Shown here piece by piece: positions 903 to 2,559 of a stretch of 6,881 nucleotides of DNA; the first letter of the stretch is position 1, and the number at the start of each line of letters is the position of its first letter. Where the stretch lies: assembly GCA_015494035.1 (NCBI GenBank), contig WGBZ01000188.1, positions 1 through 6,881 on the forward strand, read 5' to 3'. The DNA comes from Lysobacterales bacterium (lineage in GTDB: Bacteria; Pseudomonadota; Gammaproteobacteria; Xanthomonadales; Marinicellaceae). The position numbers and the translations under genes are program-made. The notes beneath the pieces are model-generated. The model had not been told where the DNA came from and ran no database searches. It saw only the letters and a list, made by a program, of their open reading frames with translations.

Positions 903-914
903 AGTTCTATCTAA

Positions 915-1074
915 GGAGCTTCTGATTGAATCTGATGCGAGCAGATTGTCGTGAAAAATCGTTCAGTTCAAGGCGCAAACCGCACGCAATAACCAGCTAT
1001 TGTGAAGGTTTGCAACGCAGAAATGGACGATTTTACGCCGCAAGATGCCGTGTCACGATTCAATCAGAGGCTCC
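915..1074 (+). mobile_element. MITE-like element, copy 1 (160 bp, non-coding)
   Basis: This is a non-coding 160 bp element. Its left end reads GGAGCTTCTGATTGAATC and the reverse complement of its right end GGAGCCTCTGATTGAATC, so the terminal inverted repeats match at 17 of 18 positions. It is flanked by direct CTAA repeats at 911-914 and 1075-1078, a 4 bp target duplication. Read on the plus strand it aligns end to end with the reverse complement of 2380-2541; by eye there are about 16 substitutions and one 2 bp gap, with a 42-base identical run in the core. No open frame of useful length is present, so any movement would need a transposase encoded elsewhere. The YTAR-type duplication resembles that of the IS5 group; that link is inference. 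The right-hand CTAA includes the reverse complement of the dnaN stop codon, so the insertion left the DnaN protein intact while widening the dnaN-recF gap from 76 to 240 bp. Confidence 0.85.
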
Positions 1075-2181
1075 CTAAAGGCGCAAAGGCATAATGATCT
1101 GGCGACAGCGATTGTTATCCGGGTCTCTCACCACGCAGCTGCTGGTGGCGTCCTTGAAACTGAACAACACATTTTCACTGTCCAGGCTGTTAATCGCATC
1201 CAGCAGGTAATTGACGTTAAACCCGGTACCCAGCTCAGTGATATCGGTTTCCACCGCCAGTTCTTCTTCCGATTCTTCCTGTTCAGGGTTGTATCCGATC
1301 AAAACAAGTTTATTAGGAGAAATTTTAAACTTAACGCCCTTGTATTGTTCATTGGACAGGATCGAAGCACGCTGGAACGCAGACCGGGCCTGCTCCTTGT
1401 TAACCTGCATGGTGAGATCGATGTCCAGGGGAATCACCAGGTTGTAGTCGGGAAAACGACCATCGATGAGCTTGGAGGTGAAGGCGGTTTGGCCCAGGGT
1501 GGCGCTGATATGGTTGCGGCCAATGTTGATCTGGATAAATTCCGGCGCGTCCTTGAGTAGTTTCTGTAACTCCAGCACCCCTTTGCGGGGAATAATGATC
1601 TGGTGTTTGACGCTTTCGCTATGCGAAAAGGGCGCCTCAGCCAGGGCCAGTCGATGACCGTCGGTGGCCACTGTGCGAATGGTGTTTTCATCCAGCTCCA
1701 GCAGCAGCCCGTTGAGAAAATACCGCACGTCCTGGCTGGCCATGGCAAAAGCGGTTTGCTGTAACAGGCGGATCAGGTCATCAGTCTTTACCTGGAAGCT
1801 GTCCACGGCCTGAACCCCTTCAATCAAGGGGTATTCATCAGCGGGCAACGAAGCGAGGCTGAATCGGCTTCTGTTGGCGCTGACGGTAACCTTGGGGCTG
1901 TTTTCAGCCTGGGTGATGGAAATCAGCGAACCATCGGGCAACGCCTTGCAAATATCAAACATTTTACGGGCCGGTATGGTGGTTTCACCAGGCTGGTGAA
2001 CTTCCACCGGCAAGCCACTGCGCATTTCCACTTCCAGGTCGCTACCGGTCACGGTCAGGTGGTCGTTTTCGGCTTTAAAGCAAAAGTTTCCCAGAATGGG
2101 CAGTGTCTGTTTCTTTTCGATCACCCCGATGGTTTGTCCCAGGGCGTGGAGTAAGGTTTCTCGCTGTGCTGTTATTTTCAT
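1075..2181 (-). CDS. dnaN: DNA polymerase III beta sliding clamp
   Basis: DnaN forms the homodimeric ring that encircles DNA and tethers Pol III and other clamp-binding proteins through its hydrophobic pocket. The predicted protein is 368 residues, close to the 366 of E. coli. It starts MKITAQRE and shows family landmarks: FLNGLLLEL (155-163), TDGHRLA (173-179), LIDGRFPDY (238-246), and a C-terminal QIIMPLRL where MPMRL is more common. These cover the three tandem clamp domains without truncation. The ATG at 2181 has only a weak purine-rich site (AAAGA) upstream. The gene lies between two inverted copies of a MITE-like element, and its TAG stop (1077-1075) is part of the target duplication of copy 1. 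A 378 bp gap from dnaA, holding the candidate origin and MITE copy 2, suggests dnaN has at least partly its own promoter; this is inference. Confidence 0.98.
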   Translation of the reverse strand: MKITAQRETLLHALGQTIGVIEKKQTLPILGNFCFKAENDHLTVTGSDLEVEMRSGLPVEVHQPGETTIPARKMFDICKALPDGSLISITQAENSPKVTVSANRSRFSLASLPADEYPLIEGVQAVDSFQVKTDDLIRLLQQTAFAMASQDVRYFLNGLLLELDENTIRTVATDGHRLALAEAPFSHSESVKHQIIIPRKGVLELQKLLKDAPEFIQINIGRNHISATLGQTAFTSKLIDGRFPDYNLVIPLDIDLTMQVNKEQARSAFQRASILSNEQYKGVKFKISPNKLVLIGYNPEQEESEEELAVETDITELGTGFNVNYLLDAINSLDSENVLFSFKDATSSCVVRDPDNNRCRQIIMPLRL

Positions 2182-2201
2182 TATCTTTATAAAAACCAGT
2201 A

Positions 2202-2231
2202 GTTATAGGCTTGGAACAAGTCCGTGGATAA
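2202..2231 (-). promoter_or_regulatory. Possible dnaN promoter overlapping a DnaA box
   Basis: On the minus strand TATAAC (2207-2202) is a 5/6 match to a -10 element. TTATCC (2231-2226), 18 bases upstream, is a poor -35 (3/6) and is part of the DnaA box at 2223-2231. A start near 2195 would leave a leader of about 14 bases. If real, DnaA bound at the box would occlude the promoter. The evidence is weak and other AT-rich hexamers nearby could serve. Confidence 0.28.
2223..2231 (-). promoter_or_regulatory. DnaA box, one mismatch (R1-like)
   Basis: The minus strand reads TTATCCACG, one base from the consensus TTATCCACA. It is the box nearest the AT-rich side and has the orientation of E. coli R1 relative to the unwinding element. 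Confidence 0.75.
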
Positions 2232-2236
2232 GCGCT

Positions 2237-2249
2237 TAAGTGATTGATT
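2237..2249 (-). promoter_or_regulatory. IHF binding site (consensus match)
   Basis: The minus strand reads AATCAATCACTTA, a full match to WATCAANNNNTTR. It starts 5 bp from the DnaA box at 2223-2231, as the E. coli IHF site follows R1. IHF bending here would bring the boxes together with the unwinding region. The consensus is loose, so the match gains weight mainly from its position. Confidence 0.6.
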
Positions 2250-2287
2250 TTAAGGCAAAAGAAGCGCCGAGTGCAAAAGGATTAAGC

Positions 2288-2296
2288 TGTGGATAA
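2288..2296 (-). promoter_or_regulatory. DnaA box, perfect
   Basis: The minus strand reads TTATCCACA, the exact high-affinity DnaA consensus. It lies in the middle of the candidate origin and faces the same way as the R1-like box. Confidence 0.88.
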
Positions 2297-2333
2297 GCTG
2301 TGTTTAAGTTTAGCGGCTGTTTTTATCCCCGAC

Positions 2334-2342
2334 TTATCCACA
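2334..2342 (+). promoter_or_regulatory. DnaA box, perfect (R4-like)
   Basis: The plus strand reads TTATCCACA, the exact consensus, opposed to the box at 2288-2296 with 37 bp between them. It is the strong box farthest from the AT-rich end, the place and orientation of R4 in E. coli. Confidence 0.88.
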
Positions 2343-2379
2343 GCTTGCCCACAGGTATTGAGCCATGTTGTTCATCTAG

Positions 2380-2541
2380 GGAAGCTCTGGTCGAATCGTG
2401 ACACGGCGCCTTGCGGCGTAAAAGCGCCCATTTCTGCGTTGCAAACCTTCACAATAGCTTGTGTTATTGCGTGCGGCTTGCGCCTTGAACTGAACGATTT
2501 TTCACGACAATCTGCTCGCGCCAAATTCAATCAGAGCTTCC
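2380..2541 (-). mobile_element. MITE-like element, copy 2 (162 bp, non-coding)
   Basis: This is the second copy of the element at 915-1074, in inverted orientation. Its left end reads GGAAGCTCTGGTCGAATC and the reverse complement of its right end GGAAGCTCTGATTGAATT, so 15 of 18 terminal positions match. Direct CTAG repeats at 2376-2379 and 2542-2545 form the 4 bp target duplication, again fitting YTAR. No transposase or other open frame is inside. The target differs from the CTAA of copy 1, so the two copies arrived by separate insertions rather than as the ends of one composite transposon. It lies 14 bp past the dnaA stop and 34 bp from the last perfect DnaA box; without it and one CTAG the dnaA-dnaN gap would be 212 bp. 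Transcripts from dnaA into dnaN must pass through it, and its paired ends could form a hairpin in that RNA. Confidence 0.85.
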
Positions 2542-2559
2542 CTAGTGACAATACAAGGC

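Follow-up and report, generated by a model that had tools for sequence, protein, structure and literature searches.

Bacterial MITEs are usually viewed as the debris of insertion sequences (ISs), and one kind, the Correia elements, is flanked by TA. ISs of the NF033581 (IS5_4) group have the same class of ends as the family described here and in part the same YTAR target duplications, but they are about 1.2 kb long and carry a transposase. The BrickBuilt element of Porphyromonas gingivalis and the Neisseria ATR are MITEs derived from IS5 and, like our family, are non-coding and multi-copy with IS5-type ends (PMC4596501). The ends given there for BrickBuilt, GAGACCTTTGCA, are close to those of the Marinicella branch of our family, GAGACCTCTGCA; in contrast, BrickBuilt, with 19 segments in the studied strain, has an interior of 23-nt tandem repeats, while ours is a hairpin of about 160 bp conserved across genera (PMC4596501). 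Correia, ERIC, QMITE1 and QMITE2 elements are likewise short and occur in dozens to hundreds of copies, and the last two, QMITE1 of 300-400 bp with 2-3 nt repeats and QMITE2 of 150-190 bp with 7-9 bp repeats, are drawn as hairpin folds like ours; in the parts of these accounts that concern structure, we met none with both the YTAR duplication and the core, and it is on their descriptions that we set them apart (PMC10969869, PMC5896051). The MITEs of Candidatus Thiomargarita nelsonii are also gammaproteobacterial and very numerous, and one type forms long hairpins, but the direct repeats given in the relevant section are TATAG or 10 bp rather than YTAR (PMC4853749). We found no published account or name for our element in the open-licence literature, where its end sequences led to nothing relevant other than the Porphyromonas account; a name may exist in ISfinder.

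We consider it highly probable that the two segments analyzed here are separate MITE insertions, moved in trans by an IS5-type transposase, and that they belong to an old superfamily of hairpins that was likely selected as a single strand.

Two copies of the element beside dnaN

The window is the whole stretch of DNA that was analyzed, 6,881 nucleotides in length. We take the genes on its minus strand to be dnaA, dnaN and recF, in that order, and those to the right on the plus strand to be rpmH, rnpA, yidC and the start of mnmE. An initial annotation had reported two inverted copies of a 160-162 bp element at about 90% identity with a 42-base identical core, each with terminal inverted repeats and its own 4 bp duplication (CTAA, CTAG), and all of this was recovered when we measured it. 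Copy 1 (915-1074, plus strand, 160 bp) and copy 2 (2380-2541, minus strand, 162 bp) are identical at 144 of the 162 positions of a global alignment (88.9%), with one 2-base gap and a longest identical run of 42 bases. Their terminal inverted repeats, GGAGCTTCTGATTGAATC / GATTCAATCAGAGGCTCC, are about 18 bp long (915-932 and 1057-1074 in copy 1). CTAA stands on both sides of copy 1, at 911-914 toward recF and at 1075-1078 toward dnaN, and CTAG on both sides of copy 2 (minus strand), at 2376-2379 toward dnaN and at 2542-2545 toward dnaA. Neither copy contains a transposase gene, the length being too small for one. A predicted hairpin spans nearly all of each, with an energy as RNA of -86.0 kcal/mol for copy 1 (z -11.9) and -79.6 kcal/mol for copy 2 (z -8.0). 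In the core of copy 1 (968-1021, plus strand), the conserved TCAAGG (968-973) lies opposite AACGCAGA (1014-1021).

Copy 1 is placed exactly at the stop codon of dnaN, antisense to both dnaN and recF: the stop TAG is at 1075-1077, within the duplication, which reads TTAG on the dnaN strand. The open frame of dnaN (1075-2181, minus strand), flanked by both elements, is intact. Copy 2 is sense to dnaA and dnaN and separates the end of dnaA from a group of DnaA boxes. Two of these boxes, at 2288-2296 and 2334-2342, are perfect (TTATCCACA), and one, at 2223-2231, has one mismatch; the cluster that they form (2223-2342), between the two elements, is a candidate origin; a fourth match, also with one mismatch, falls within dnaN. 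The initial annotation was right to call the element MITE-like, while its remark that insertions are rare in so conserved a cluster is needless, as both insertions lie outside coding sequence. The first 300 bases of dnaN (1882-2181) are 71-77% identical to the congener G002 (L081) and the remainder 90-94%, as if the 5' part of the gene had been replaced in one of the two genomes.

Copies of the family and their insertion sites

When the genome that contains the window (G000; 2.14 Mb in 386 contigs, completeness 88%) was scanned with a 28-position core pattern at up to three mismatches, it gave 172 matches, against 0 for the reversed pattern. This greatly exceeds chance, and the multi-copy family predicted at the outset does exist; at 160 bp each, these matches would make up about 1.3% of the assembly. 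BLAST gave at least 73 matches, with 40 of 278 candidates scored, at 44 separate places; the other 29 rows are on the opposite strand and repeat places already counted, because the element is a palindrome. In 87 stretches (247 kb), nearly all picked because they hold copies, a profile search located 134 copies, of which 112 are full length. For the 108 full copies with flanks, the median identity to the consensus is 93%, and the window copies are at 92.5-92.6%. As for recent activity, no pair among the 108 reaches 99% identity, the highest value being 97.5%.

Seven contigs of G000 (C22, C346, C274, C81, C91, C335 and C360) start or stop in or at a copy; the family is therefore a likely cause of breaks in the assembly, and there may be more copies than we counted. 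Short derivatives that keep both ends were seen at L156:3487-3561 (75 bp), G000:C346:4321-4374 (54 bp) and L038:1502-1617 (116 bp). Tandem copies with one common junction of 4-6 bp, at G000:C374:9201-9538 and C314:4015-4335, look as if one element had entered the duplication of another.

Flanks with YTAR had also been predicted. This motif stands to the left of 74 of the 108 full copies, to the right of 69 and on both sides of 55, and in 45 of these 55 pairs the two sides are identical, compared with an expectation of 27%. Counting any sequence, identical 4-mers flank 51 of the 108 copies and are lacking at 57; identical 5-mers flank 2. For elements of other genomes, identical 4-mers, mostly YTAR, were found in 10 of 19 cases and were lacking in 9. 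Copies in Marinicella have 5-bp duplications in 13 of 18 cases and 4-bp duplications in 2; the branches thus differ in their partner or in the way it works.

Both window sites are empty in congener G002, with a projected gap of -4, that is, one duplication fewer, and the family is present elsewhere in that genome. The end of dnaN, CGCCTTTAG, is the same in the two genomes; in the window it is followed by the element and then TTAG again, and in G002 directly by the flank. On the dnaA side of copy 2, the CTAG of the window aligns to GCAG in G002 with no gap. A second congener, G001, has neither window element, and BLAST with a window copy matched nothing anywhere in it. The placement of 14 of 105 G000 sites on G002 stretches gave 8 empty, 3 filled and 3 other, proportions that are biased by the choice of these stretches, nearly all of them picked for holding copies. 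The clean empty sites are the two of the window, C267 and C315; two at C72 and two at C243 are adjacent members of tandem copies and are not clean. At C72, the copies at L004 and L031 have common flanks, and the insertion therefore looks shared. Some insertions thus look older than the split of G000 and G002 and the two in the window younger, unless they were exactly lost.

Two inverted copies only 1.3 kb apart and 89% identical might have arisen by an old inverted duplication around dnaN, with no mobility involved. To this reading we give practically no credence: the core matches across the genome, the 4-bp duplications, the empty sites in G002 and the lack of either element in G001 all refute it, and they exclude the outcome named beforehand as fatal to a mobile element, that is, no further copies and the same segments fixed in relatives. 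Inverted copies that share a 42-base run could also recombine and flip dnaN together with the DnaA boxes, as an invertible switch. The order of recF, dnaN and dnaA is identical in the window assembly and both congeners, however, and two insertions of a many-copy family explain the arrangement, which makes the switch very improbable. Taken together, the copies, the duplications and the empty sites show this to be a MITE family, and the two window segments to be separate insertions of one multi-copy, non-coding element.

Where such elements land was examined by codon-usage gene prediction on the fetched segments, which classified 94 of the 108 copies, the other 14 being too close to an edge. Fifteen of the 94 were called inside a gene. 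In 23 of the 94 (2 of them also among the 15), the TAR of the duplication coincides exactly with the stop codon of an adjacent gene, as at dnaN, and in two of these landings it ends both genes of a convergent pair. The free YTAR sites of these segments comprise 24 at a stop codon, 150 intergenic and 300 genic; stop codons set against other non-genic sites give odds of 2.5 (p 0.009), and a test that used open reading frames only, with 23 of 72 against 73 of 441, points in the same direction. Copies outside genes lie between convergent genes in 28 cases, tandem genes in 46 and divergent genes in 4, with 1 unclear, compared with 32 convergent, 101 tandem and 22 divergent among all neighbouring gene pairs. 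Selection against insertions in genes and promoters accounts for this bias, and no special targeting step is needed. An insertion in the last codon duplicates the stop codon, because YTAR contains TAA or TAG, and dnaN thus keeps its own stop; landings of this kind would be harmless, which would explain why many survive. At two further sites in G000, C166_2373 (1505-1664) and C109_1 (1086-1245), the stops of convergent genes would have shared one YTAR, and each gene has its own copy of the stop once the element is inserted.

The same distribution might be read as a sign of domestication, in which copies are kept as hairpins at mRNA 3' ends for stability or termination and mobility is only historical. 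Besides the convergent and stop-codon bias, the copies at tandem sites are sense in 29 cases and antisense in 17, and the fold is very stable. Against this, the stop-codon landings have no significant orientation preference (16 sense, 9 antisense, p 0.23), copy 1 runs antisense to both dnaN and recF, and a search of Rfam 15 gave no match at the gathering threshold for the window or for any of 11 relative loci, and none up to E 1 for 880-1110.

The hairpin and its strand

A scan of named genomes returned at least 63 stretches bearing the core. Among those listed, 29 are from the G002 record, and the others are from Marinicella, Methylophaga, Chromatiales, Thiotrichaceae, a Solemya symbiont, Hydrogenovibrio and unplaced gammaproteobacterial or proteobacterial MAGs. 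Of 39 valid sister elements, 37 are 159-163 bp long; the extraction sought ends within a limited distance and misses longer forms by design. We aligned 20 of the 39 with the two window copies (alignment A2), leaving out L118 and L119 (175 and 182 bp); a further alignment that held both strands of most elements (A3) was kept out of the pair counts.

RNAalifold predicts 62 pairs on A2, 43 of which have double changes that preserve pairing, and bases in the internal loop of the hairpin are conserved. Under the named structure, 95.2% of the cells pair, compared with 75.7% after shuffling and at most 41.8% after sliding. The covariation is 0.563, compared with 0.200 shuffled, a control that leaves the relatedness among elements in, and at most 0.106 slid. 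All 22 elements have TCAAGG, and AACG is almost invariant among them; of 19 further genomes, 13 retain TCAAGG, and AGG, AAC, AATAG and TATT are invariant in these 19.

A covariance model extended the range of the family. Of 369 genomes sampled in the class, it matched 104 at E 1e-3 (81 of 272 genera) and 55 at 1e-10, the window's own genome included; its E-values are rough, and weaker matches are counted by score alone. A phylum-wide search at 1e-8 matched 50 of 398 genomes, 15 in the class and 35 in one family outside it (f217). BLAST with a window copy matched 9 of 61 genomes, its own included, and these are different samples that do not allow a direct comparison with the 104 of 369.

Several elements have insertions in the apical loop (L115, L163 and L168; L144 and L169; L173, L174 and L199), and the loop module CTCTCTCGCTTCGCGATTCACCTTGTAGC, or a near variant of it, is common to three different MAGs. 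Forms of 226 and 291 bp in Marinicella carry a second hairpin.

Judged by sequence comparison, the window element is a member of an old superfamily of about 160 bp, and the interior is likely a hairpin maintained by compensatory changes rather than an IS remnant. One caution applies to selection on the fold, as correction of the palindrome by template switching could likewise yield compensatory changes.

The fold also distinguishes the two strands. In A2 and among the copies of G000 we assigned the strand from the sequence; for the 19 elements from genomes outside model building, the covariance model chose it. As RNA, the plus strand is more stable than its complement by 7 to 30 kcal/mol in all 22 elements of A2; it is the more stable in 106 of the 108 G000 copies, and the same strand is in all 19 of the outside elements. 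Under DNA parameters the plus strand folds better in 21 of the 22, the exception being window copy 2, which has no preference. Considering only pairs predicted on both strands, departures to GU outnumber those to AC by 44 to 11 in the 22 elements and by 35 to 5 in the 19; counted by pair position, there are 20 with GU and 9 with AC, which is only suggestive of an asymmetry. Within G000, variants in at least 4 of 90 copies comprise 13 GU and 5 AC, and rare variants 53 GU and 47 AC, the rare substitutions being strand-symmetric. Because the common variants lean toward GU while the rare ones are balanced, we read this as selection on the spreading source lineage followed by free decay of the landed copies, with the caveat that the counts are weakened by shared descent. 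Given that one strand is predicted to fold better than the other, selection likely acted on the spreading lineage for folding in single-stranded form, either as RNA or as single-stranded DNA; resident copies would then decay, with selection on the single strand gone.

Rare variants that fail to spare pairing in resident copies are a further point against a role at mRNA 3' ends, and together with the orientation and Rfam results above they leave domestication unlikely. A different route to a strand preference would be a Y1 (HUH) transposase that moves the hairpin in the form of single-stranded DNA, as in REP/RAYT-like systems, and the imperfect, strand-specific hairpin with its conserved mismatched bases would suit it. 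To our knowledge, HUH elements make no target duplication; the 4-bp YTAR duplications and the IS5-like terminal inverted repeats of about 18 bp stand against such a mechanism and make it quite improbable.

A probable transposase partner and the spread of the family

The ends of the element and its YTAR duplications are of the IS5 kind. A Marinicella genome (G018, locus L184) contains an IS of 1205 bp whose 335-aa transposase, with the domains DUF772 and DDE_Tnp_1, scores 225.6 bits against NCBIfam NF033581 (cut-off 140). Over 16 bases its left end, GAGACCTCTGCATAAG, agrees exactly with that of MITEs in the same genome, and its right end has two mismatches; past the ends we saw by eye no likeness to those MITEs. 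Another genome, G355, has an IS5_4 gene with the end GGAAGCTCTGATTTATTC at CTAA, 17 of 18 bases identical to a MITE of G355; this IS is known from one end, the other lying beyond the contig edge.

Homologues of the G018 transposase were found in 25 of 101 genomes searched, with none in G000, G001 or G002, which are incomplete assemblies. The search returned 30 loci, many of them cut by contig ends. At L209, L211, L231 and L216, all of the same order, the homologous ISs have GGA-type ends and identical YTAR duplications; at L207 the IS is flanked by two YTAR sequences that are not the same, at L215 both flanks are CTTA, and other loci differ. In 20 MITE-bearing genomes elsewhere, the NF033581 family matched in 9, in 4 of them over the cut-off, and gave no match in the remaining 11.

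The search for a parent IS in G000 itself turned up PF01609 at two places and PF13340 at one, and we rejected the IS5-type copy at C174, which has other ends, TAGTGTCGTCAC. That copy, at L077:1476-2327, sits inside a truncated copy of our family, at CTAG. In 172 loci of G000 (785 kb), no adjacent facing ends were found around an open frame. Plasmid records gave no match to the window element and only chance-level matches to two sister elements, and viral contigs had no exact match to the core.

From these comparisons, mobilization in trans by the NF033581 (IS5_4) group is likely, and the partner of the window's own family was not found in G000-G002. An IS5-family transposase supplied in trans is predicted to bind the ends of about 18 bp and to cut at YTAR; we infer that it came from an NF033581 (IS5_4) IS that is now lost from G000 or missing in its assembly. 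A bolder reading, which may be correct although we lean against it, is that of an old, class-wide, RNA-like MITE lineage in which a folded top strand with its conserved internal loop is needed for spread. Such a lineage would pass from one IS5-type transposase to another by altering its ends alone, with the folded core retained, and its YTAR target would let it enter stop codons and return the stop to the gene.

Set against the usual view of bacterial MITEs, this family has an interior of about 160 bp that different genera and families share, that shows compensatory changes and that prefers one strand, while its ends and the length of its duplications vary by branch. If this is true, some MITEs would be lineages in their own right whose fold is functional, and covariance models would detect such elements where BLAST fails. 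Landing on stop codons, finally, would be a simple and testable reason why such elements accumulate in dense genomes, including next to dnaA and dnaN.
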